From Alphaproteobacteria bacterium (GTDB lineage: Bacteria; Pseudomonadota; Alphaproteobacteria; RF32; CAG-239), in NCBI GenBank assembly GCA_017444525.1, contig JAFSWL010000033.1:1-40117 (forward strand): DNA of 40,117 bases. Direction: 5' to 3'. A model generated the notes under the pieces. It was not told where the DNA came from, did not search any database, and saw nothing but the letters and a program-made list of their open reading frames with translations. A program made the translations under genes and the position numbers. Positions 1 to 14,425 of this stretch are shown here, one piece after another; the stretch's first letter is position 1; each line of letters opens with the position of its first letter.

Positions 1-114
1 CCTGTTTATGAAAGTTTGCTTGAACGTGCCAAACCTAAAATGGTTGCTATTACTGCTGTTATGCGTAAGTTAATCATTTACCTGAATGTTAAATCTAAAA
101 CTCTTTGTGCATAA
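1..114 (+). CDS. IS110-family transposase, C-terminal end only
   Basis: The reading frame is open from the first base to a TAA at 112-114 and gives 37 residues. They match the usual C-terminal tail of IS110/IS116/IS902 transposases: a Tyr-x-x-Leu-Leu stretch, then Lys-Pro-Lys, then an Ala-Val-Met-Arg-Lys-Leu block followed by Leu-Asn. The family makes DEDD-type recombinases that move the element under the guidance of a structured RNA encoded in the element. Only the tail is visible; the catalytic domains lie left of the window. The family call rests on this short motif, so intactness cannot be judged. Confidence 0.72.
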   Translation, partial: PVYESLLERAKPKMVAITAVMRKLIIYLNVKSKTLCA

Positions 115-223
115 TTTTTTTTAACTGGATTGATGACGGTTGTTTTTTTTGCACCGCGCACCTAGAGGATGAAAGGTTGGAGTTTCTCTTGATGCACGGA
201 CGTACAGTGCCGTACGAGGAATG
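1..223 (+). mobile_element. Right end of an IS110-family insertion sequence
   Basis: The transposase stop at 114 is followed by about 110 non-coding bases. These contain a GC-richer patch (150-220) with small repeats around CGTAC (189-213). From 224 the sequence becomes a near-perfect copy of the intergenic module also found at 1283-1316, so the element's right boundary is placed at about 223. IS110-group elements lack classic terminal inverted repeats, and I see none. In the IS1111 subgroup the guide RNA lies downstream of the transposase, so 115-223 could hold it; this is inference. Confidence 0.5.
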
Positions 224-256
224 GCACTAAAGGGAAATTTTACGAACTCGTTATAG
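224..256 (+). repeat. Intergenic module, copy 0 (right half only)
   Basis: These 33 bases match 1283-1316 with a single one-base indel and match 2342-2368 more loosely. Only the right half of the module is present. The left half, with its terminator, is replaced by the IS110 end. This suggests the insertion sequence landed inside a module copy. Confidence 0.7.
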
Positions 257-281
257 TAAACTGATATTTAGGTAAAAATAC

Positions 282-310
282 TTGATAAAATTAGAATATA
301 AGGATATAAA
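282..310 (+). promoter_or_regulatory. Promoter of the PP2C gene
   Basis: TTGATA (282-287) and TATAAA (305-310) are separated by 17 bases. This is a good sigma-70 match about 50 bases upstream of the ATG at 361, and it lies after the repeated module, so this gene has its own promoter. Confidence 0.55.
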
Positions 311-360
311 TAAACTAAAAATCAGTATTTAATTTTTTAAGATATTTATAAGGAAGTAGT

Positions 361-1167
361 ATGATTGAAATAATCGAACAAAAATCAATTTCTAAAACAG
401 GAATTGAAACGGATAATGAAGATGGTGTATTTGTGTCGGATAATTATGTGGCAGTTGTTGATGGCGCAACGAGTAAGGATTCTAATCTATATGAGGGGCG
501 CACAGGAGGTCAAGTTGTTCGTGATATAATATTAGAAACTCTTGCAAAATTGAAAGGGAATGAGACATCTGTGGAGGGTGTGCACTTAATACAAAATGAA
601 ATAGAAAAACAATTTCCGGCAGCGGAATTTTTTCATGCTTGCGCATCTGCTGTTATTTTTAATGTGAGAAAAAGATGTATATGGATGGTGGGAGATTGTC
701 AGGCTTGCGTTAATGGGAAAAAATACACCAATAATAAAATTATTGATGATATAAACTCCCACACCAGAGCTATGGTTCTAGAAGCTTTCATTATGGATGG
801 TAATCCGGAAAGTGAAATTCTTAAAAACGATATAGGAAGAGAAATGATTATGCCGTTCTTAAAACTACAGAAAAAATTTGAAAATAAATCCGGATATTTT
901 GGTTATCCTGTTTTTAATAATGTTTCAATGCCAGAAGATGTATTGCATTCTAAAATTGTAAATATTGATATTCCTGAAAATGCAGAAATTGTGCTTGCGA
1001 GTGACGGATATCCTGAGCTTAAACCATCATTAAAGGAATCAGAAGAAGAACTTGCTAAAATAGTAAAAGAAGATCCTTTTTGTTATAAAACATATTTTTC
1101 CACCAAAGGTCTGAAAAAAGGTAACGTCAGTTTTGATGATAGGACATACATCAGATTTAAATCTTAG
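361..1167 (+). CDS. PP2C-like protein serine/threonine phosphatase
   Basis: The 268-residue protein has the signature blocks of the metal-dependent PP2C phosphatases in the right order. An Asn-Glu-Asp block (19-21) is followed by a VVDGATS block with the metal-binding Asp at residue 34. Then come Gly-Asp-Cys at 111-113 (normally GDS), ALASDG-like Ser-Asp-Gly at 214-216, and a closing Asp-Asp-Arg at 259-261. Members remove phosphate from Ser/Thr using two Mn or Mg ions. There is no signal peptide or membrane segment, so it should be cytosolic. AGGAAG sits just before the ATG. It has its own promoter and a terminator in the module downstream, so it is a one-gene unit. No partner kinase of the Hanks type is in the window. 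The fold call is fairly secure; the role is unknown. Confidence 0.78.
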   Translation: MIEIIEQKSISKTGIETDNEDGVFVSDNYVAVVDGATSKDSNLYEGRTGGQVVRDIILETLAKLKGNETSVEGVHLIQNEIEKQFPAAEFFHACASAVIFNVRKRCIWMVGDCQACVNGKKYTNNKIIDDINSHTRAMVLEAFIMDGNPESEILKNDIGREMIMPFLKLQKKFENKSGYFGYPVFNNVSMPEDVLHSKIVNIDIPENAEIVLASDGYPELKPSLKESEEELAKIVKEDPFCYKTYFSTKGLKKGNVSFDDRTYIRFKS

Positions 1168-1168
1168 A

Positions 1169-1316
1169 ATTCGTAATCTGCCTACTTCGCATTACCAATA
1201 CAAACAACGGCCTGTAAAACGGCTGTTTTTTCTTTTTAAATCAATCGCTTATATGAGTTCGAATGTTTGTTTTTTGAAAACAGCACTAAAGGGAAATTTT
1301 TACGAACTCGTTATAG
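1169..1316 (+). repeat. Intergenic module, copy 1 (complete)
   Basis: This 148-bp stretch starts immediately after the phosphatase stop and aligns along its length with 2222-2368. It consists of a short conserved leader, a terminator hairpin with a long T run, and a second structured part. In that part GAGTTCG (1255-1261) pairs with CGAACTC (1303-1309) around an inner hairpin. The last 34 bases are nearly identical to 224-256. The pairing changes in the other copy keep the stem intact (see findings). Confidence 0.75.
1206..1231 (+). terminator. Terminator of the PP2C gene, inside the module
   Basis: AACGGCC (1206-1212) pairs with GGCTGTT (1221-1227), with one G-T wobble, and is followed by a T run. 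The equivalent stem at 2265-2286 is perfectly paired, so selection for the hairpin is likely. Confidence 0.75.
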
Positions 1317-1351
1317 CAATAATGCAATAAAATCAAGTCGTTATAATTAAC

Positions 1352-1380
1352 TTGACAAAACATGTTAAGTATTTTAAAAT
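1352..1380 (+). promoter_or_regulatory. Promoter of the ART-like gene
   Basis: A perfect TTGACA (1352-1357) and TAAAAT (1375-1380) are separated by 17 bases, 38 bases upstream of the ATG at 1418. It lies downstream of the repeated module. Confidence 0.7.
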
Positions 1381-1417
1381 ATGTACATGGTGTTAATTAG
1401 ATTGCAGTAGGTATAAA

Positions 1418-2221
1418 ATGAGTGTTTCTGATGAAGAAAAGGTCCAAAAGTTGCAAGAAAATTTTCAAAACTATAAAAATTTTCGCCGCAAAAATGAGTT
1501 TAATTTGCAAAAAGAAATCTTAGAATATCAGAGTGAAGCTGATGAATATCGGGCTCAAGGTGATCAATTGAGTATGAGAGCGGTGCAAACGAACATTAAA
1601 CAGACAGAGAACACCTTGCAACGGCTTAAAGATTTGTCGCAGTATGTGCGTGAGCCAACGCTAGAGGATTATGCGTATCGACGTAATCAATATGAGAATT
1701 TTGCAAAAACTATTCAACGATTTATTAGCGAAGATGAGTTGTTGTGCTTTCACGGCACAAATATAGCCGCAACTAAACATATTTTTGAGAGTGGAAACAT
1801 TAGTTCCGGAGCTTCAAGATTAGGATATCACACAAGTTTTGATGCGAAAGGGGCAATTTCTGTTACCAGTATAAATATGGTTGATACCTCCGTCCAAAGC
1901 TATATGAATTTGATTGATGATATGTATTTACCGGCAGGTTGTTTATTTGTTGTTAAAGCAAAAGATGCTGATGAATATGAAAGCTCTATTTCAAGGATGT
2001 CTATTAAAGATGTTGATTTTAAGAATAGTCCGGAAAGATTGGTCGCGGTTATTACAACTCCAGAAAATGAGGAGCGTGTCAATACTTGGGTTCAACAATG
2101 CGTATTTGATGCGTCCAAAGTTATGACTTTTGAGAGTTTCATAAAAGAATGTAAACAATCATATCATGAAAAAATAACCAATATAAAGCGAAGCTCGTTA
2201 AAGGTAGACGAATATACATAA
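1418..2221 (+). CDS. Unknown protein with a possible ADP-ribosyltransferase-like domain
   Basis: The 267-residue soluble protein begins with about 75 residues of charged, Gln/Glu-rich helix that is probably coiled coil. A globular part follows. Near its start is a Phe-His-Gly-Thr block (111-114) and then a Gly-Tyr-His-Thr-Ser...Ala-Ile-Ser-Val-Thr-Ser stretch (136-151). This arrangement resembles the first strands of the PARP/Tpt1-type ADP-ribosyltransferase fold, where the His of an HGT motif binds NAD and a later Tyr/Ser and Glu complete the site. A candidate late Glu lies in the Pro-Glu-Arg-Leu-Val segment after residue 205. I do not recognise the family, and the ART assignment is inference from this motif. 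Own promoter and downstream module make it a one-gene unit. Confidence 0.4.
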   Translation: MSVSDEEKVQKLQENFQNYKNFRRKNEFNLQKEILEYQSEADEYRAQGDQLSMRAVQTNIKQTENTLQRLKDLSQYVREPTLEDYAYRRNQYENFAKTIQRFISEDELLCFHGTNIAATKHIFESGNISSGASRLGYHTSFDAKGAISVTSINMVDTSVQSYMNLIDDMYLPAGCLFVVKAKDADEYESSISRMSIKDVDFKNSPERLVAVITTPENEERVNTWVQQCVFDASKVMTFESFIKECKQSYHEKITNIKRSSLKVDEYT

Positions 2222-2368
2222 AATCCGGCTCGTAACTCGCTTATTTAGGATCACCAATATAAACAACAGCCTGCAAAATGGCTGTTTTTTCTTTTTAAAT
2301 CAAGTAGTTGACCAAGTTTGGATATTGTGCTTTTAAAAACAAGCATTTTGGGAAATTTTACGAACTTT
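2222..2368 (+). repeat. Intergenic module, copy 2 (complete)
   Basis: This aligns with 1169-1316 from the base after the stop codon onward. The terminator stem is at 2265-2286. The long-range stem is AAGTTTG (2314-2320) with CGAACTT (2361-2367), at almost the same spacing as in copy 1 (47 versus 48 bases). The sequence between the arms has diverged while pairing is kept. Confidence 0.72.
2265..2296 (+). terminator. Terminator of the ART-like gene, inside the module
   Basis: A perfect 7-bp stem, AACAGCC (2265-2271) with GGCTGTT (2280-2286), is followed by a T-rich tail. Confidence 0.75.
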
Positions 2369-2374
2369 TAGGGG

Positions 2375-2403
2375 TTTACTTTATAGAGTAAGTTTTGTAG
2401 TAT
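2375..2403 (+). promoter_or_regulatory. Promoter of the P-loop kinase gene
   Basis: TTTACT (2375-2380) and TAGTAT (2398-2403) are separated by 17 bases, 30 bases before the ATG at 2434. The match is moderate. Confidence 0.45.
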
Positions 2404-2433
2404 GGACGCAAATGGTATCAGCGGAGAAAATAA

Positions 2434-2907
2434 ATGGCGACGATTCATTTGATGGTTGGGTTTATGGGGTTTGGAAAAACAACACTAGCAAAACAGTTGG
2501 CTGAAACAATTCCAGCAGTAAGATTGACACATGATGATTTAATGGTTAAACTCTATGGACGAAATATGCCGTATACAGAATTTCACCTCAATTATGATAA
2601 AGTTGATGAGATTTTGTGGAATTTGGCAGAACAAATCATTAAAACCGGAACGGATGTAATTATGGATTATGGCTTTTGGTCGCATAGTGATAGGGATAAG
2701 GCATACCAAAAAGCAAAAAAAATCACAGACAATATTCTTTTTCATTATGTATATTGCGATATGTCCATAGCAAAGAAAAGAATTTTGGCTCGTTCAGCGC
2801 AAAATCCAGATGAATTGTATATCAGAGAAGATGAATTTGATATTTTAGCAAAAAAGTTTGAGACATGGAATAATATGGACGATTATCCTGTTATTATTCA
2901 TAATTAG
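2434..2907 (+). CDS. P-loop kinase-like ATPase (AAA_33 / zeta-toxin-like clan)
   Basis: The 157-residue protein is a minimal P-loop kinase. The Walker A motif runs from Gly9 through Gly14-Lys15-Thr16. A His-Asp-Asp-Leu segment follows at about 33-36, as in the AAA_33 group. A Val-Ile-Met-Asp segment (about 74-77) can serve as the Walker B-like strand, and the Arg-rich region around 118-121 as a lid. Relatives phosphorylate nucleotides, sugars, antibiotics or tRNA ends, so the substrate cannot be told from sequence. There is no antitoxin-like gene next to it. GGAG precedes the ATG at suitable spacing. It is the third single-gene unit of the accessory run and the last before the tRNA-Thr element. 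Confidence 0.72.
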   Translation: MATIHLMVGFMGFGKTTLAKQLAETIPAVRLTHDDLMVKLYGRNMPYTEFHLNYDKVDEILWNLAEQIIKTGTDVIMDYGFWSHSDRDKAYQKAKKITDNILFHYVYCDMSIAKKRILARSAQNPDELYIREDEFDILAKKFETWNNMDDYPVIIHN

Positions 2908-2993
2908 GTTCATCGTCATGGGGCAAGTAGTAAAAATTATAAAAAGTATCAATCAGCGTTTTGAGCATTTGTTAAGTTAATTTAAGTACAGAC

Positions 2994-3018
2994 AAAGCAC
3001 CTCGAAAAGAGGTGCTTT
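2994..3018. terminator. Hairpin terminator, probably the original tRNA-Thr terminator
   Basis: AAAGCACCTC (2994-3003) and GAGGTGCTTT (3009-3018) form a perfect 10-bp stem with a GAAAA loop. It sits directly beside the displaced tRNA-Thr 3' fragment, exactly as the hairpin at 6031-6056 sits beside the intact tRNA. It can also stop transcription from the kinase gene. Confidence 0.65.
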
Positions 3019-3069
3019 GTATTGGTGCCAACAGAGAGACTCGAACTCCCGACCCACTGATTACAAATC
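3019..3069 (-). repeat. Attachment-site copy: displaced 3' half of tRNA-Thr
   Basis: These bases are identical to 6058-6108 and contain the CCA tail, acceptor strand, T arm, variable loop and half of the anticodon arm. At 3070 the sequence departs from the tRNA. It is not a functional tRNA gene. Confidence 0.85.
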
Positions 3070-3147
3070 TTGCCAATTCATTGATTTTGTGCAATCTTAA
3101 GTCGTTGAATATACGTAATTTTTGTTGTATTATCAAAAATTTATGGA

Positions 3148-3168
3148 GTTTAAATTCTAAATTTAAAC
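3148..3168. repeat. 9-bp inverted repeat upstream of the first element gene
   Basis: GTTTAAATT (3148-3156) and AATTTAAAC (3160-3168) are perfect inverses with three bases between. There is no T run, so an operator is more likely than a terminator. It is about 130 bases upstream of the promoter at 3301. The rest of 3070-3300 shows no gene; a CTCACTC-rich patch at 3208-3229 is the only other structure. Confidence 0.4.
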
Positions 3169-3300
3169 TGATTGAAAATGGCTAAAGATGGTATAAACGG
3201 TTTCTTGCTCACTCACTCGGCGCTCACTCAAATAAATAGCTCCTGTTCTGAAATGAAAGGTAATGAATAATCATGTTTTAATACTAAAACTGCTTGCGTT

Positions 3301-3328
3301 TTGGAATTTTGTTTCCTAACTATATAAT
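3301..3328 (+). promoter_or_regulatory. Promoter of the first element gene
   Basis: TTGGAA (3301-3306) and a perfect TATAAT (3323-3328) are separated by 16 bases, 29 bases upstream of the chosen ATG at 3358. Confidence 0.55.
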
Positions 3329-3357
3329 ATAAATCTTATATTATGAAAGGAAAAATA

Positions 3358-3816
3358 ATGGATTACAAAGAGATTATACCGATTACGGCACTACGCAAAT
3401 TTGATGCAATGTGCTTACATAATGAGTATTTGCGCGAAAATAAAGAATTGCAACAGCAAATTTTATCGTGGGCGGCGGAGTTGCTCGGAGAAGCAAGAGA
3501 GGACTGGGGTAAGCTCCATACCACAACCTTTGAAGCTATTGTTGCGGAAGACCGAAGAGCTCAAGCCAAAAAACGCGGCAGAGCCAGAGACAACAAATAT
3601 GCACCTTTTCGCGAGTATTTTAAAAAAGTTCAAAGAGAAAAATTTATGGAATATAAAAAGGCAGGACAAAAGCTTACGGCAAACAGATATGTAGAATGGT
3701 TCTTAGAAAATCTGTCGGAAAATATTAAAATACCATATCGTGAAAGTAACCTAAAAAATAAATTGGTACAATTGGCTCAAATCAACAATCGGGAACTTAA
3801 AAAAGCTTTTGAATGA
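3358..3816 (+). CDS. Basic helical protein of unknown function, element-encoded
   Basis: The ATG at 3358 is preferred because AAAGGAAAAATA lies directly before it; an ATG at 3343 is in frame but lies upstream of that ribosome site. The 152-residue product is soluble and highly charged. It has a Lys/Arg-dense centre (about residues 77-110) followed by a Gly-Gln-Lys-Leu-Thr-Ala-Asn-Arg segment (about 110-117) that could be part of a helix-turn-helix. A DNA-binding or replication-control role inside the integrated element is plausible, but I recognise no family. The gene is 100 bp upstream of the lysozyme pair and on the same strand. Confidence 0.6.
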   Translation: MDYKEIIPITALRKFDAMCLHNEYLRENKELQQQILSWAAELLGEAREDWGKLHTTTFEAIVAEDRRAQAKKRGRARDNKYAPFREYFKKVQREKFMEYKKAGQKLTANRYVEWFLENLSENIKIPYRESNLKNKLVQLAQINNRELKKAFE

Positions 3817-3915
3817 TAAAGTTGATATATTGCAAACTATGCCGGATTGTCAACGTTTTTGCTTATCGTTGAAGTGGAAATGTAAATTTCTAATTTTAGC
3901 TGAAAGGAAAAAACA

Positions 3916-4272
3916 ATGACAGAATTTACACGTGAATTAATGTTCGGCAAACGTCCGGTGCGTCGTACTGACCCTAAACCCGGACAGAGTGAATGGTATT
4001 ATTTGGACCCGCGTGGTGCAAGTACGTTTTCTGATATGAAACAAATCGATGTACCAAGTGAGAATTCGCCCAATCCGTATGCCAACGAAATACAGAACTA
4101 TCTGTATAAAAACGACGAGTATAACTATAAACAGCTTTATGGTGATACTCCACCACCGGCCGTTAATCAATATAGCTATGGTACTACAGATTATATGGTA
4201 AATACCGAAAATCCGATTGGAAAACCGAGCAGTTATTTTCAGAATAACAGTAGTGGATTAATTGCAACCTGA
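3916..4272 (+). CDS. Low-complexity phage-like protein overlapping the lysozyme ORF
   Basis: AAAGGAAAAAACA precedes the ATG. The 118-residue product is rich in Asn, Pro, Tyr and Ser and has no predicted compact domain, signal peptide or membrane segment. It ends at TGA 4270-4272, 11 bases inside the next frame. That next frame is closed by a TAA at 4259-4261, so the two frames share only 4262-4269. The composition continues across the junction: both sides are Asn/Thr/Gln-rich. This suggests the ORF is the N-terminal disordered part of a longer lysozyme protein split by a +1 shift, or a translationally coupled upstream gene. Confidence 0.55.
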   Translation: MTEFTRELMFGKRPVRRTDPKPGQSEWYYLDPRGASTFSDMKQIDVPSENSPNPYANEIQNYLYKNDEYNYKQLYGDTPPPAVNQYSYGTTDYMVNTENPIGKPSSYFQNNSSGLIAT

Positions 4273-4915
4273 TACATTAACAAATCAGGGTGTACAATAT
4301 GCACAAAATAACGTACCTAATACTACAGCTGACACTAACGGAAGTATAGTATTAAATAATCAAGACGCTATTTTTGATAGAGTTTTTAACAGAACAATGC
4401 AAGAAGAAGGAGGATATGAGGATAGAGCAACACATATTGATACACCGACAAATATGGGATTTCAACAAGCCACATTAGATAGATTTAAATCAGCACATCC
4501 TGATTTGGCGCAGGGATATCCTACTAATGTTAGAGATTTAACATACGAACAAGGCAAGCAAATAGCACGAAAAGACTATTTTGATAAATATCGTATTGGT
4601 GAAATACAGTCGCAACCTTTGCAGGAAACTATGTTTGATTCATTTTTCAATCATAGTCTGGAGGGCCCCGCTACTTGGGCTCAAAAGGCTATTAATCAAA
4701 ATACTAACACACGTGTTAAGGAGGATGGTATTTTTGGTTCCGAAACTATAGGAGCATTGAATAATTTATCTCCCACCGAGATTGATAATGTAAATAATGC
4801 TATTATAAATATGAGACAGTCCGATTATGAAAGGGAAAGAGATAAAAATCAAAATCCCAATTATAGAAGTTATACTACAGGCCTCCCTGGTAGATTTAAT
4901 CGTTTTAGAAGATAA
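4262..4915 (+). CDS. GH108-type phage lysozyme (N-acetylmuramidase) with C-terminal peptidoglycan-binding domain
   Basis: The 217-residue product contains a Glu-Gly-Gly-Tyr motif (49-52, Glu49 the expected catalytic acid). It is followed by Asp-Thr-Pro-Thr-Asn-Met-Gly-Phe (60-67), the GH108 pattern seen in ZliS-like muramidases. A C-terminal segment (from about 125) with Trp-Ala-Gln-Lys-Ala and Asp-Gly-Ile-Phe-Gly matches the PG_binding_3 domain usually fused to it. Such enzymes cut the glycan strands of peptidoglycan for phage release or entry. There is no signal peptide. The only in-frame start is TTG at 4262, with no clear ribosome site, so expression probably depends on the overlapping upstream ORF, by re-initiation or a frameshift. 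The family call is good; the true N terminus is uncertain. Confidence 0.75.
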   Translation: MQPDTLTNQGVQYAQNNVPNTTADTNGSIVLNNQDAIFDRVFNRTMQEEGGYEDRATHIDTPTNMGFQQATLDRFKSAHPDLAQGYPTNVRDLTYEQGKQIARKDYFDKYRIGEIQSQPLQETMFDSFFNHSLEGPATWAQKAINQNTNTRVKEDGIFGSETIGALNNLSPTEIDNVNNAIINMRQSDYERERDKNQNPNYRSYTTGLPGRFNRFRR

Positions 4916-4925
4916 TAGCAAAAGT

Positions 4926-4964
4926 AAGAATGGGGTTAGTAAAATGTTACTAATACCCATTCTT
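4926..4964. terminator. Bidirectional terminator between the lysozyme and the secreted protein
   Basis: AAGAATGGGGTTAGTAA (4926-4942) pairs with a partner at 4947-4964, with small bulges, forming a long stem. It follows the lysozyme stop and overlaps the last codons of the convergent gene. Confidence 0.65.
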
Positions 4965-5693
4965 TGCTATATTAAGATAAATTAATTTCTCCAGCATATT
5001 CATCAATATTGTATATTCATCAGTATATGGTAAAATGTTTGACATTGAACCACAACCGCCATGACAATATTTGTTTTCTGCATAAATCCCAAAATAGAAT
5101 TTCCAAGCAGATTTGCGAATTTGTCTTACGTTTTCAAGTATTTTTGTTTGTTCATCAGAAACAAAGCCTTTTTCTATTTCTTGTTTTATGGCGTATTCCA
5201 AACAATCATTGATTTTTATATTTTGCTGTACCATATCTTCTGTGGTTGCGTTATCTCTTAATTCTGCTTCTGCGACGCATTTCTTAAAAATATCTTGAGC
5301 TTGTATTTTGGCTTGTTCTCTGTTGTCTTCTTTTGTATGATTAATACTTGGTAAACTATCCAACTCTGCCGAGATATTATATTCTCCGGCTTTAATGCAT
5401 TCCGAAGCAGCGCCGAGATTAACAAATTTGTTACCATCCTTATAATAAGTATGAGCGAGGTCTAAAGCTATACCATGAACATAAACCGGATTGCTGTTTT
5501 GAACATTATCTACTGGAATAATTTGAGGATTAGCATCAGGACAAATTGAACAATAATCATATATTTCCTTTTGCCTTTGAATAATATCAACCGCCTTTTG
5601 AGCAACTTTCTCACTTACCTCATAGCAAATATCTGCCCAAGCATTTGTACTTAAACTCCAAACAAGTCCTAAAATTAAAACAAACTTTTTCAT
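4950..5693 (-). CDS. Secreted cysteine-containing protein, weakly LprI-like
   Basis: The start is placed at the second ATG (5693), which is seven bases from a GAGGT site; the first ATG abuts that site. The 247-residue product has a clear signal peptide with likely cleavage after Ala-Trp-Ala (about residue 20). The mature part has about eight cysteines. Near the C terminus, Arg-Lys-Ser-Ala-Trp-Lys-Phe-Tyr is followed by Cys-His-Gly-Gly-Cys-Gly-Ser-Met and a helix with Leu. This resembles the Trp...Gly-Gly-Ser pattern of LprI/DUF1311 proteins, some of which inhibit lysozyme. The match is weak. It is convergent with the lysozyme gene in the same integrated element, which makes the comparison worth testing. 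Confidence 0.5.
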   Translation of the reverse strand: MKKFVLILGLVWSLSTNAWADICYEVSEKVAQKAVDIIQRQKEIYDYCSICPDANPQIIPVDNVQNSNPVYVHGIALDLAHTYYKDGNKFVNLGAASECIKAGEYNISAELDSLPSINHTKEDNREQAKIQAQDIFKKCVAEAELRDNATTEDMVQQNIKINDCLEYAIKQEIEKGFVSDEQTKILENVRQIRKSAWKFYFGIYAENKYCHGGCGSMSNILPYTDEYTILMNMLEKLIYLNIAKNGY

Positions 5694-6030
5694 TTTCATA
5701 CCTCATATTTTATTATTTATATCATAATTGTCGCTATATGAATGTCAATATAAAAGTACCGATACTAATATTTATCAGACGAATCTGCTACAAATACAAC
5801 AAAAACAATTTTCCAAATTCTGCAAACAGGATTATTTAGGTAGGCATAGAGCCACTGATTTTATATCAGTGAACTATATAGATAATTATCATTATAAAAC
5901 AAATAGTTACAAAATAATAAAATTAGAGTGAGCGAGGAAGATACATACGTAAATAGGAAAGCACAGTTTAATACATTGCTCCGTGCATACTTGCAAATTT
6001 TGCTTATTGTAATAAGAATTATCCAGAATC
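5694..6030. other. Non-coding end of the integrated element
   Basis: I see no credible gene in this AT-rich stretch. It holds a possible promoter for the secreted protein: TTGACA on the minus strand at 5743-5748 and TGATATAAAT at 5715-5724. It also holds a 7-bp inverted repeat, CACTGAT (5853-5859) with ATCAGTG (5865-5871), which resembles the tRNA-Thr anticodon arm and may be a degraded attachment-like sequence. Confidence 0.45.
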
Positions 6031-6056
6031 AAAAAACCCTTGAAAAATCAAGGGTT
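6031..6056 (-). terminator. Terminator of tRNA-Thr, supplied by the integrated element
   Basis: On the minus strand AACCCTTGA and TCAAGGGTT (6048-6056 and 6035-6043) form a perfect 9-bp stem followed by a T run. It lies directly after the tRNA CCA end. Confidence 0.75.
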
Positions 6057-6057
6057 C

Positions 6058-6108
6058 GTATTGGTGCCAACAGAGAGACTCGAACTCCCGACCCACTGAT
6101 TACAAATC
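6058..6108 (-). repeat. Attachment-site copy inside the intact tRNA-Thr gene
   Basis: This is identical to 3019-3069 over 51 bases. Identity ends within the anticodon stem, as expected if integration rebuilt the 3' part of the tRNA. Confidence 0.85.
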
Positions 6109-6137
6109 AGTAGCTCTACCAACTGAGCTATGTTGGC
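6062..6137 (-). tRNA. tRNA-Thr (anticodon TGT)
   Basis: The 76-base gene folds as a standard cloverleaf: acceptor GCCAACA with TGTTGGC, a D arm with AGTTGGTAGA, and an anticodon stem ACTGA/TCAGT around TTTGTAA. The T arm contains TTCGAGT, and CCA is encoded at 6062-6064. It reads Thr ACA codons. It is the integration site of the 3-kb element to its left and remains complete. Confidence 0.96.
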
Positions 6138-11167: not shown

Positions 11168-11248
11168 CGTTTCTTTTATGGCCTCTAGATTATAAATATG
11201 TTGTATAATGCAAAAAAATGTGTTACAATGAACTCAGAGAGGTGTGCC

Positions 11249-11944
11249 ATGGATAAGTTGAAAGAATTAGTACGCAAGCTTTTACGCCTTTTGGTTTTTA
11301 TGCTGCCGCTGTTTTTTGTTTTGATTGTCGGTTATATCTTTTATTTGAAGTTGACAAACAGCAGAATCGAGCAAACACAAGAAGATTTGGTTTATTTCAT
11401 GCAGCGAGTGCGTCAAAATTATCCGAGTGCAAAGTATATGGACTTTAATTCCGATTTTATAGGTTATAGCGATTTTTTGCCGCTGAATGTTAAAGTTAAA
11501 CAGTCCGATGAGGGTAATGAGATATATAATCATTTCGGCGGTAAAATGGTTTTCAATGAAGCACCTAAAACATTGGCCGAACGCAAAAATTATCTTTATA
11601 TCAGACGTGAAGAAAAAATGTTTAAGGCACAATATCAGGGTTTGGGTGCGTACATTATTTTATTTACGGGATTGAAACACCGAGAGTGCGTTGCTATGTC
11701 TATGACGGATTGGCATTCTACTTTCCCTAATTTTATGGGGTTGGAGGCATCTTTTGTTTCTGCGCGTGAACCGTATAACGGTTCGGAGCTTATCAGTTAT
11801 TATCTGCTGCAAGATAATCAGAATGAGGTATATAAGTCGGCGGATAATGGAACAATCTCTCGTCAACCGTTGACACGTTGGGATGCCGTTAGAGCTTGTG
11901 GCTGTCTGTCGGATAATTGTACTGTTGCGTTGAAATTCTTTTAG
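11249..11944 (+). CDS. Membrane-anchored protein with a pilin-like (PilS/TcpA-style) periplasmic domain
   Basis: The ATG at 11249 has AGAGAGG at good spacing; earlier in-frame ATGs do not. The 231-residue product has one transmembrane helix (about residues 12-34, Leu/Phe/Val-rich) and then an extracytoplasmic domain. It contains Tyr-Asn-His-Phe-Gly-Gly-Lys-Met (about 92-99) and later Phe-Thr-Gly-Leu-Lys-His-Arg-Glu-Cys-Val, an arrangement like the Asn-x-Phe-Gly-Gly and late Cys of PilS/TcpA-type pilins. Three more Cys occur near the C terminus. There is no prepilin peptidase site (Gly-Phe-x4-Glu) before the helix, so it would not be processed as a typical pilin. The assignment is inference. 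The SemiSWEET gene follows after 11 bases. Confidence 0.5.
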   Translation: MDKLKELVRKLLRLLVFMLPLFFVLIVGYIFYLKLTNSRIEQTQEDLVYFMQRVRQNYPSAKYMDFNSDFIGYSDFLPLNVKVKQSDEGNEIYNHFGGKMVFNEAPKTLAERKNYLYIRREEKMFKAQYQGLGAYIILFTGLKHRECVAMSMTDWHSTFPNFMGLEASFVSAREPYNGSELISYYLLQDNQNEVYKSADNGTISRQPLTRWDAVRACGCLSDNCTVALKFF

Positions 11945-11955
11945 GATAATTTGAT

Positions 11956-12225
11956 TTGGATATCTTCGGTGAAATTTTGGGCTGTTTAGCCGGTATCTGT
12001 ACAGCGGTTGTGTTTTTGCCACAGTCAATTCAGACTATTAAAACCAAAAATGTCAGCGGACTTTCACTCGGCAGCTATGTTATATATTGCGTCGGCATGA
12101 TACTTTGGATAGCTTACGGAGTGTATTTGCATTCAATTCAAATGATGTTTTTCAATGCCTTATCGTTGTTTTTTGCCATGATTATTTTATATATAATCAT
12201 TCAGCAACGAATCAAGAAGCGTTAG
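11956..12225 (+). CDS. SemiSWEET-like PQ-loop transporter
   Basis: The 89-residue protein has three transmembrane helices, the size and topology of bacterial SemiSWEETs. Its first helix ends in Val-Phe-Leu-Pro-Gln-Ser-Ile-Gln-Thr-Ile, which is the PQ motif. Ser-Gly-Leu-Ser-Leu-Gly-Ser-Tyr-Val and an Asn in helix 3 (Phe-Phe-Asn-Ala) follow. SemiSWEETs dimerise and allow passive passage of small sugars across the inner membrane. The start is TTG, with AGGAT nine bases before it, just after the stop of the preceding gene, so the two are probably co-transcribed. The substrate is not predictable. Confidence 0.82.
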   Translation: MDIFGEILGCLAGICTAVVFLPQSIQTIKTKNVSGLSLGSYVIYCVGMILWIAYGVYLHSIQMMFFNALSLFFAMIILYIIIQQRIKKR

Positions 12226-12234
12226 CTTCAAAGA

Positions 12235-14274
12235 TTACTCTTTTGTTGAAGTATGATCGTTATCCCCGTTTAAGTTATCTAAGAAATGGCTTTCTATTTT
12301 GATGTATTGCTTGAAAAGCCATTGAGAGCGCATAATCAGCCAAATTGAGCCTAAAAGCAGTAAGAAAATTGCTTTAGGATTTTCAGTCAGAAATTGGTGT
12401 ACGGCGGTTACAATGAAAAAGCAAACAACTAACATACGTACACTGGTTAAAATCAGCAGAGATGGACGGTAAAGCTTGTTAGCGAACCACAAATCGGTAT
12501 AGATGCGTGAAATGCTGTCTTTGGATATAATGTTTTTAACAGAATCTTTGACGGTTTCAGTATTATCGTGAATAACGGTTTTGAGATGTTGTGGCATCAT
12601 AAAAATATGCCTTTGCGTATTGATTTCTTCAGATGCTTGATTTTTCGGGAATAAACGGCGATGCAAAACCACATAAAGTCGTTTGAAAATATTTTTTTGT
12701 GGAACAAGTTGTTGTGCGTAACGATTTAAGTTTTTAGTCGGCACAGTTTCCAGCAGTTTTTGTTTGGTCTTTTCGGAAACTGTTTTGACAGTATTTTTCA
12801 GATTGGCAGATGTAACTGACGGCAAGATGTTACGGCCGGCCAAACCGGTTAAAAACGGAGACATTAATAATAAGGCGATTGCGGTAGTCAGAATACGAGC
12901 AACCAGATTCGGCATCCATTCCATAGCGTATGGCCGAATCCAGAGTTTTACTATGGCAATTATGGCTGTCAGAATAAAGGAAAATATAAACATACGAATA
13001 AAGGATATTTTAAATAAATCGACCCATTTTTGGTTTTCTTCGGATGAGGTCGAATGTGATTTGGCATTTTGATTAATAAAAGTGAGCCAATTTTCAGGAA
13101 GGGTTTTTTCTAGGAATTTCAAAAACTTGGGAGCTGATTTTATCATGATCGGGGTTAAAAATGTAGTTATTACTGAAACGGCAACAATAATCGGATAAAC
13201 AAACTCATCAATGATATGCAGGCTCATACCGAGAGTGGCGATAATAAAGGCAAATTCACCGACTTGTGCCAATGAAAAACCGCAGGAAACCGCCGTTTTG
13301 AGATTTTGCCCTGAAATAACCAATCCGAAAATCGAAAATATGACCATTCCCGTCAAGACAACGGCTGTTATTACTGCTATAGGATATGCATAAGTGATGA
13401 ACATTTGCGGATTTACCATCATACCGACGGTTACGAAAAATACCGCACCAAAGAAGTCCTTCAGCGGTTTGATGATGTGTTCGACGCGTTGAATGACACC
13501 GGTTTCAGAGAGTATCGACCCCATAATGAAGGCCCCCAAAGCCGAAGAAAACCCAAAATATACTGCCAAATAAACCATAGTCAGACAAAGGGCAACTGCA
13601 ACCAATAACAGCATCTCATCGTTCACAAAGTCTTGAAGTTTGCGTAAAGCTGTCGGAATCAGATAAATGCCGGTCACAAAGCATAAGATCAAAAAGGCGG
13701 CAAGTTTTAAGATACTCAATCCGATTTCGCTACCGTTGATACTGTTGCCCACAGCTAATGTAGGAAGCAGTACAAGCATTAAAATACCGACGATATCCTC
13801 GATTACCAGTATTCCGAATACCAAATCGGTAAATTTTTGTTTTTTGATGTTTAAATCATCAAAGGCTTTGATGATGATTGTGGTTGAAGACATGGAAATC
13901 ATTGAACCTAAGAAAAAGCTGTCAGAAGTTGTCCAACCTATCAACATACCGACATAATAACCGACAAAGAACATTAATAAAATGTTCAGAGTAGCGGTAA
14001 TAACCGCTGATTTGCCGACAGCAAACATTTTTTTGACACTGAACTCTAACCCCAGGCTGAATAATAGGAAAATAACGCCGATGTCTGTCCATAAACTTAG
14101 ATTTGCATGATCGGTTACGGTTGGCACCAGATTAAAGTAAGGACCGGCAAAAATGCCAGCCAACAAGTAGCCCAAAACCATCGGTTGCTTAAGTTTTTTG
14201 AACAGCAGCGTGGTGATGGCGGCATAAATTGTTATCAATGTCAAATCGATAATCAGAGGATGCAATCCGTGCAT
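12235..14274 (-). CDS. CPA2-family monovalent cation:proton antiporter (KefB/NapA type)
   Basis: Residues 1 to about 390 form the Na+/H+-exchanger domain of the CPA2 family, with about 12 hydrophobic helices. Leu-Gly-Tyr-Leu-Leu-Ala-Gly lies in the second helix, Phe-Ser-Leu-Gly-Leu-Glu-Phe near 75-81, and Glu-Asp-Ile in the ion-binding region near 160. Beyond it there is no TrkA-N nucleotide domain. Instead there are two further hydrophobic hairpins (about 430-485 and 610-655) separated by a basic cytoplasmic stretch. It likely exchanges Na+ or K+ for H+ across the inner membrane. The total of 679 residues is longer than the bare transporter. AAGGAAAAAGTC precedes the ATG. It converges with the SemiSWEET gene and has no obvious terminator. 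Confidence 0.85.
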   Translation of the reverse strand: MHGLHPLIIDLTLITIYAAITTLLFKKLKQPMVLGYLLAGIFAGPYFNLVPTVTDHANLSLWTDIGVIFLLFSLGLEFSVKKMFAVGKSAVITATLNILLMFFVGYYVGMLIGWTTSDSFFLGSMISMSSTTIIIKAFDDLNIKKQKFTDLVFGILVIEDIVGILMLVLLPTLAVGNSINGSEIGLSILKLAAFLILCFVTGIYLIPTALRKLQDFVNDEMLLLVAVALCLTMVYLAVYFGFSSALGAFIMGSILSETGVIQRVEHIIKPLKDFFGAVFFVTVGMMVNPQMFITYAYPIAVITAVVLTGMVIFSIFGLVISGQNLKTAVSCGFSLAQVGEFAFIIATLGMSLHIIDEFVYPIIVAVSVITTFLTPIMIKSAPKFLKFLEKTLPENWLTFINQNAKSHSTSSEENQKWVDLFKISFIRMFIFSFILTAIIAIVKLWIRPYAMEWMPNLVARILTTAIALLLMSPFLTGLAGRNILPSVTSANLKNTVKTVSEKTKQKLLETVPTKNLNRYAQQLVPQKNIFKRLYVVLHRRLFPKNQASEEINTQRHIFMMPQHLKTVIHDNTETVKDSVKNIISKDSISRIYTDLWFANKLYRPSLLILTSVRMLVVCFFIVTAVHQFLTENPKAIFLLLLGSIWLIMRSQWLFKQYIKIESHFLDNLNGDNDHTSTKE

Positions 14275-14425
14275 GACTTTTTCCTTAAAAATGTTGTGAT
14301 TACAACGATTTTAATTAAAAACTTTTTATAAATGATTAAGATTTTTGATTAATTTTTCGGTATAGACATCAACGGAAACGGCACAATGCAAAAAGTTTTT
14401 CTGTTTTGCAAGACCTTTATACATA

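Follow-up and report, generated by a model that had tools for sequence, protein, structure and literature searches.

The question raised by this locus is why its first genes are separated by copies of one intergenic module, and whether the stretches between the copies are units that can be exchanged. The window, that is, the whole stretch of DNA analysed here, is the entire contig C12 of genome G000 (40,117 nt, in an assembly of 1.58 Mb and 50 contigs that is 86% complete), and a sequence-only reading of it had proposed that the modules mark the borders of exchangeable promoter-gene-terminator cassettes. Much of the description behind this proposal holds: two full copies and a half copy have sequence, order and spacing in common (84% over 74 nt at 1171/2230; 87% over 31 nt at 229/1289 for the half copy and a full module), the stop codon of the preceding gene directly precedes each full module, and both full copies contain a terminator.

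Read from left to right, with all features on the forward strand, the array starts at 224..259 with the half module, which comprises the right-hand arm of the inverted repeat together with the downstream side of the module; in place of the missing left half, other sequence runs to the contig start, and the beginning of the array is lost at this edge. A 37-codon tail at 1-114, which we take to resemble the end of an IS110-type transposase, was not confirmed as such by Pfam, PHROGs, PDB or plasmids. Cargo 1 (361..1167, 268 aa) is followed by a motif termed E, the right end of cassette 1 (1170..1190, TTCGTAATCTGCCTACTTCGC), by the core ATTACCA (1191..1197), the proposed crossover and a variant of ATCACCA, the 3' end of tRNA-Glu, and then by the terminator hairpin (1206..1227) and the inverted repeat, or long stem, of module 1 (1255..1309, with arms GAGTTCG at 1255-1261 and CGAACTC at 1303-1309). 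The same succession returns behind cargo 2 (1418..2221, 267 aa), with the E motif that ends cassette 2 (2229..2249, CTCGTAACTCGCTTATTTAGG), the core ATCACCA (2250..2256), the terminator hairpin (2265..2286) and the inverted repeat of module 2 (2314..2367, arms AAGTTTG at 2314-2320 and CGAACTT at 2361-2367). Cargo 3 (2434..2907) encodes a 157-aa AAA_33-type kinase, behind which no E motif is present in the window. A fresh promoter had been claimed after all three copies and was recovered after the first full one, where a sigma-70-like promoter of cargo 2 (TTGACA-17-TAAAAT, 1352..1380) matches at 11/12 positions; just 9/12 match before cargo 1 (337-374), and the scan reported no promoter between module 2 and cargo 3. 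Terminator-like sites on both strands of 1-3100 number 6 against 1.4 expected, and promoter-like sites 21 against 13.2.

The module extends well beyond the source strain. The copy at 1169-1400 has seven further matches in its own genome (E 2.9e-50 to 7.3e-6), namely the other two copies of the window and five places on contigs C35, C46 and C47, and the module is present in 21 of 27 genomes of the genus, G000 included. With a query from another species, it was found in at least 95 of 127 genomes of the family and at least 13 of 16 genera, short partial matches counted, the best E value being below 1e-20 in 56 of the 127 (counted by hand). A pattern scan of named genomes returned 19 stretches, 18 of them titled Alphaproteobacteria, Rhodospirillaceae or proteobacterium, with rumen samples as the source of many, and one a 4.2-kb contig titled Gastranaerophilales. 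The module was not found in phage or plasmid records, two exact module patterns had no match in viral contigs, and Rfam gave no match for it, two tRNAs being the only Rfam matches in the window. Found across a family and beside differing genes, the modules are borders of exchangeable gene cassettes, and two of the three outcomes that the sequence-only reading had named as damaging to itself, restriction to one strain and constant neighbouring genes, were not encountered; the third, loss of covariation once more copies are aligned, was encountered for the long stem. That reading is thus partly supported; absent from it are the two-part boundary, the core and anchoring provided by tRNA-Glu, and larger elements that bear a large serine recombinase (LSR) and have the same two ends.

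The right half of the boundary is the module, which is the left end of a mobile element and has the order ATCACCA-ATACAAAC, terminator, AAATCAAGCACTTAA, conserved inverted repeat GAGTTCG...CGAACTC; its core is identical to the tRNA-Glu 3' end, including the CCA. The left half is E, TTCGTAAnnTGCGAGnnnAGC with variants, located shortly after a stop codon, and cassettes typically end in this motif with the next core after it; a second type of left half (TACATCGTCTGATAGTTTCC) accompanies glycosyltransferase cassettes and occurs in two other places. At other loci, an intact tRNA-Glu gene (TTC or CTC) with ATCACCA as its last bases stands as the left half. As the left half is either E or an intact tRNA-Glu, the arrays have the order tRNA-Glu / module-gene-E / module-gene-E / flank. 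According to our reading of the pattern-scan table, an intact tRNA-Glu is flush with a module at 10 of the 38 tRNA-Glu loci of the genus, a count that omits four script-marked MOD tRNA rows with other sequence behind the core (G003 C16, G006 C210, G012 C29 and G025 C84); in other genera this is the case at 7 of 20 loci, which had been preselected for modules or LSRs. In G020, tRNA-Glu-CTC is separated from an L118-type end by a cassette. The E-core pattern occurs at 23 places in 25 genomes and the reversed pattern, used as a control, at none, while loose boundary patterns gave 145 rows, many of them chance E-like rows within genes, and stricter ones gave 67, about a dozen of which still look like chance. 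It may be added that GTTCG is present in the tRNA T-arm too and that E has a similar TTCGTAA.

The same two ends enclose much larger elements. Five with both ends were found in three genera, leading from tRNA-Glu-TTC and module through a large serine recombinase, LSR-E, to E-core: 18.8 kb on C35 of G000, 22.7 kb in G021, 15.0 kb in G072 and 13.5 kb in G056, which belong to one other genus, and 13.9 kb in G126, which represents a third. LSR-E, carried by all five, has 541 aa in G000 and 535 aa in G021 (88% identical), contains Resolvase, Recombinase and Zn-ribbon domains, and retains the RVS serine motif in every one of the 7 copies aligned; the full-size elements also hold serine-recombinase relatives without this motif. 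In G072, G056 and G126, the order is tRNA-Glu-TTC, module, first gene, HUH protein, serine-recombinase-like proteins, LSR-E and E-core, and the first gene, at 29-32% to those of G000 and G021, has helix-turn-helix signals under the Pfam cut-offs. The HUH protein is encoded in 6 of 6 full-size elements examined, with invariant HxH and Y-C-x-K residues and a match to Pfam REP_ORF2-G2P that is above cut-off in G056 and below it in G000. Cytosine methylases are present in the G056 and G000 elements, and the stretch between LSR-E and E encodes an ApeA-type protein in G056 and, by weak matches, a 734-aa ATPase-like and a 332-aa nuclease-like protein in G000. G127 has the tRNA, LSR-E and E, with the first-gene homolog on the other strand and a left module that the pattern did not find.

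An empty site is available for one of these elements. In G034, a genome of the same genus as G056, tRNA-Glu-TTC runs straight into the terminator and flank that follow E in G056, so that this single comparison reveals that insertion was exact and took place at a conserved gene's 3' end. The G056 junctions read ATCACCATTTC on the left and ATCACCAATAC on the right, and their comparison with the empty site places the exchange within ATCACCA. In G126, a native-type terminator sequence lies behind E-core, at 15039 on C9.

The cargo is sporadic and varied. Cargo 1 has no Pfam or NCBIfam family and occurs in 4 of 127 family genomes, and its C-terminal part is copied in G001 (79% over residues 202-268), again with an E motif after it. 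Cargo 2, which has no Pfam family, is represented in 7 of the 127 family genomes, its own among them, and in 7 of 16 genera, with an 81% identical gene in a G007 cassette, and cargo 3 shares 60% identity with residues 1-155 of a fused 407-aa protein that is encoded in a G008 cassette at tRNA-Glu. Of the ten non-self loci of cargo 1 and cargo 2, three are situated at a tRNA-Glu module or E-core site. Four others come after a different tRNA (Ser twice, Pro, Met) and share its orientation, one neighbours tRNA-Glu but on its opposite strand, and the remaining two show neither arrangement; the loci behind Ser, Pro and Met tRNAs suggest that small tRNA-anchored cassettes may exist at other tRNAs. 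In a scan of 20 cassette proteins, no Pfam family was assigned to six at E up to 0.01, and four more have Pfam matches solely below the curated cut-off, the rest being an inositol phosphatase, an SAA-like protein, two GNAT-type proteins, a NUDIX protein, a nucleotide-kinase-like protein, a GDPD, a gp30.3-like protein, a hydrolase and a DUF218 protein. One glycosyltransferase is shared by G008, G021 and G023 at 98.5-99.3% identity, and the cassettes that carry it have different neighbours. On C35 of G000, counting outwards from the tRNA, a full-size element comes first, then the remnant of an L118-type LSR element, a cassette (two small genes and a kinase) and a terminator without module; judging from this order, newer elements seem to lie beside the tRNA whatever stood there before.

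Taken together, it is probable that the cassettes are non-autonomous mini-elements that are moved in trans by LSR-E. A cassette would be an integrative mini-element of about 0.7-2.6 kb in our maps, with the plan core, module (terminator and inverted repeat), one gene, sometimes two or three, and E motif. In a circular form, which we infer, it would join E, core and module as one attachment site, and LSR-E from a full-size element with the same two ends would recombine this site, within the core ATCACCA, with a tRNA-Glu 3' end. The tRNA would stay whole because the element brings its own core and terminator, and new arrivals would land between the tRNA and earlier ones, so that arrays build up. 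The inverted repeat would bind a protein, which might be the recombinase, the first-gene protein or the HUH protein. As the cassettes share both ends with the larger LSR-bearing element, the system resembles the gene shuffling of integrons, with another enzyme in charge.

LSR-E is the sole large recombinase found in these full-size elements, and it is co-located with modules: hits of at least 60% identity are on a module-bearing contig in 9 of 12 cases, against 6 of 65 for other LSRs (Fisher p 5e-6, for hits that are non-independent, with G082 counted twice and contigs of unequal size). Several observations count against this enzyme. Its 12 hits of at least 60% are confined to 10 of 127 genomes and are thus much rarer than the modules, G008 (98% complete) has several cassettes and gave no large serine recombinase hit, and at tRNA-Glu the sequence on the right-hand side of the core is highly diverse, an uncommon feature at known serine integrase sites. 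The rarity and the case of G008 are compatible with helpers residing in other cells, with loss of the helpers, or with a different enzyme. In G027, an LSR-E-like gene (60%) has one internal stop, and no module is among the matches listed; LSR-E had one weak partial match in viral contigs. It should be noted that LSR-E need not act alone, since small complete resolvases are encoded in the full-size elements (198 aa in G056; a PF00239 match in a 235-codon frame in G021). Furthermore, the tRNA-Glu end is a contested site, because other types of LSR sit there: an L118-type LSR is flush with tRNA-Glu-TTC in G014, and a 562-aa type is at the same tRNA end in G003 and G006, with a piece in G009. At 15 of 18 loci inspected, the L118-type LSR or its remnant adjoins the 3' end of a tRNA (Glu, Lys, Gln, Met, Leu). 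It was at first considered as the mobiliser and was rejected as owner of the E end after 566 kb around these elements had been scanned, which gave five E-like hits, none before a core; the far ends of the L118-type elements were not found.

It is also quite possible that the cassettes are CIME remnants, that is, full-size elements minus their middle, which move, if at all, only together with a neighbour by accretion. The rarity of LSR-E compared with the modules favours such decay, as does a C-terminal piece of an L118-type recombinase in G000 that lies by a partial AAA_13 gene between two E-core sites; the order on C35 is suggestive, at most, of CIME decay with mobilisation in cis, and accretion of CIMEs has already been described in the parts of PMC5704250 and PMC3146451 used here. 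Nevertheless, the cassettes are built to one plan (module, gene, E), in which little residual element sequence is left, and the near-identical glycosyltransferase cassettes in three species suggest movement as units, both of which count against a remnant origin.

The sequence-only reading had described paired changes in both stems, but the terminators of the window copies differ on one arm only (G-U versus A-U), the 3' arms being identical, and their long stems differ by one double change from G-C to A-U and one one-sided change. In alignment A2, comprising 43 copies (24 of the genus and 19 of other genera) that were all chosen for having the right arm of the long stem, which favours conservation of that arm, the long-stem covariation that had been claimed is absent: the value is 0.095 against a shuffled mean of 0.095, and 245 of 500 column shuffles were at least as high. 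Three pairs (70-120, 71-119 and 72-118) are invariant in the 43 copies, the outermost two are unpaired in 8/43 and 14/43, and RNAalifold predicted just five long-stem pairs with zero double changes for 24 copies; one divergent module of 25 (G006 C61:17730) is omitted from both alignments, A1 and A2. In contrast to this, nearly all of the 43 copies preserve the terminator fold despite changes of sequence and register (mean z -3.9; 0.5, 0.1 and -0.9 in three weak copies). With covariation equal to that of shuffles and no match in Rfam, the inverted repeat is better read as a conserved sequence than as a covarying fold, and it is probably bound by a protein. Were this the HUH protein, the repeat could be a replication or transfer origin (nick site), and the cassettes would have two cis signals, an explanation that is unlikely, as no nick site is known and some cassettes, for example those with the glycosyltransferase, have core and terminator without the inverted repeat; it is consistent with the HUH protein in all six elements examined and with a near-fixed distance from core to repeat (98-101 nt from the core to the GGGAAATTTT..GAAC motif in 42 of 43 A2 copies and 93 in one, copies with other spacing not having been admitted).

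A tyrosine recombinase, XerC/XerD or a phage integrase, is very improbable as the mover of the cassettes. Enzymes of this class are encoded in 25 of 25 genus genomes searched, and the module-bearing G015 and G019 have just two matches, of XerC/XerD size; however, the contigs of the G000 (C35) and G021 (C2) elements have no PF00589 match, just a 90-aa SAM-like N-terminal piece being seen in these two genomes, and no tyrosine recombinase is among ten proteins scanned from the G056 element. As the constant factor, a tyrosine recombinase was dropped after the PF00589 search of the genus genomes. Homologous recombination between similar modules with no special enzyme is similarly improbable. In its favour, the modules are about 80% identical per column (43 copies) and stand in tandem, but the junctions are exact at the tRNA core, the homology to the tRNA is at most about 7-10 bp, and LSR-E lies beside the same ends in the full-size elements.

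If the cassettes move singly, an LSR can run an integron-like cassette economy with a tRNA gene as the platform. This would explain an accessory-gene hot spot in a rumen bacterial family, the exact cassette ends would be searchable in other groups, and a compact recombinase/site pair would be at hand for testing. A wider proposal can be put forward tentatively, namely that this is an independent second integron-like system, in which an LSR at the 3' CCA of tRNA-Glu captures and reshuffles mostly one-gene cassettes, the inverted repeat is a signal for single-strand replication or transfer by the HUH protein, and the distribution is family-wide in gut and rumen Alphaproteobacteria, with cassettes maybe at other tRNAs.

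In the open-licence full-text literature, which was the scope of the search and lies outside subscription journals, no account was found of one-gene cassettes at tRNA genes that a serine recombinase operates. Tycheposons are integrative elements with cargo at tRNA genes, which have tyrosine recombinases and marine hosts, whereas here a serine recombinase is found in Alphaproteobacteria of gut and rumen; they are named in the part of PMC11389934 used here. Integrons and CALINs, as portrayed in that same part, are alike in outline to the system here, with arrays of small, mostly one-gene cassettes that share a site and with many genomes that have cassettes but not the enzyme. Unlike integrons, the present arrays have tRNA-Glu as their anchor, and a strong promoter of its own was recovered for at least one cassette. 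As the sequence-only reading had stated, the modules are not attC sites: a pair R''..R' at 30-150 nt on either strand occurs in 0 of 43 modules, and since shuffled modules give only 0.2/43, this test mainly shows absence. An IntI-type enzyme was not found at the arrays of G000 C35 or G021 C2 in the PF00589 search.

Elements of the SCC kind, some with a recombinase and some without, stack at a conserved gene's 3' end; this target is a protein-coding gene, and the units are much larger. LSR-E is related to CcrB (64.7 bits) and CcrC (58.5 bits), and scores higher with XisF (85.9 bits), all far below the NCBIfam cut-offs of 900, 900 and 375, respectively. SCC elements are named in the part of PMC3146451 that was available. 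CIMEs are alike in that both attachment ends are kept, the integrase is absent and the elements are stacked at one site, and cassettes with module and E but no recombinase gene agree with this; however, CIMEs are described, in the part of PMC5704250 used, as decayed ICEs or IMEs, whereas the units here are uniform and mostly contain one gene.

The nearest described system is that of the ssrA islands of Dehalococcoides (DsiB/DsiA), as presented in the available part of PMC3146451. These islands are stacked behind a small-RNA gene, they have a roughly 540-aa serine recombinase and a smaller one, the integration module is missing in 15 of 31, and before each target-end repeat they have a conserved 15-bp motif that is unlike the target itself and is comparable to E (PMC3146451, same part). 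Their target is the T-loop of tmRNA instead of the CCA end of tRNA-Glu, their integrase gene occupies the left edge and its reading frame extends into the target, and neither a 125-nt module of terminator plus inverted repeat nor a series of one-gene cassettes is described in that part of PMC3146451. Thus, in order of relatedness, the ssrA islands are nearest to the system in this window, followed by CIME accretion, by SCC and, in logic, by integrons/CALINs.

At the left edge of the cassette array in the window, the first module is a half copy: its left half is missing, and its place at positions 1-223 is taken by a reading-frame tail of 37 codons and about 110 further bases. This stretch resembled the end of an IS110-type element, but searches of Pfam, PHROGs, PDB and plasmids did not confirm that identity. 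At the right edge, the stretch directly behind the kinase gene of cargo 3 (GGTTCATCGTCA..., 2907-2960) is similar, in a comparison by eye, to the sequence behind tRNA-Glu on two contigs of genome G004 (L121 and L132). A different element may end at this point and may have taken away the E motif that marks the right end of a cassette.

Further downstream, an insert of about 3 kb lies behind tRNA-Thr (6062-6137, minus strand) and spans positions 3023-6137 on the minus strand, with an exact repeat of 47 bases from the 3' part of the tRNA at 3023-3069. It contains an endolysin-like GH108 gene (4262-4915), along with genes that had no match in Pfam or PHROG.

At three places (L042, L043 and L055), the distance from the core to the right arm is about 185 nt, versus the usual 97 nt or so, as if about 85 extra nt had been inserted between the terminator and the inverted repeat, or as if the module were composed of two.

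Within the genus, many contigs with a tRNA-Glu locus (L108-L137) stop a few hundred bases or less past the tRNA, which is expected where arrays differ among strains. By eye, a degenerate inverted copy of the 3' half of tRNA-Glu was also seen after several of the tRNA-Glu terminators (L114, L120, L124 and L126).

The full-size element of G000 (locus L268) encodes three serine-recombinase relatives that are devoid of the RVS serine motif of LSR-E, at 4662-5117 and 11200-12231 on the minus strand and at 13934-14317 on the plus strand; they are candidates for accessory factors, directionality factors or relics. Another large serine recombinase family, or a remnant of it, is flush with tRNA 3' ends in 15 of 18 loci from several genera (L231-L248), and the tRNAs that it abuts are Glu, Lys, Gln, Met and Leu. 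In genome G014 its reading frame extends into the antisense strand of tRNA-Glu, and a 99% identical copy was found in a different genus (G065).
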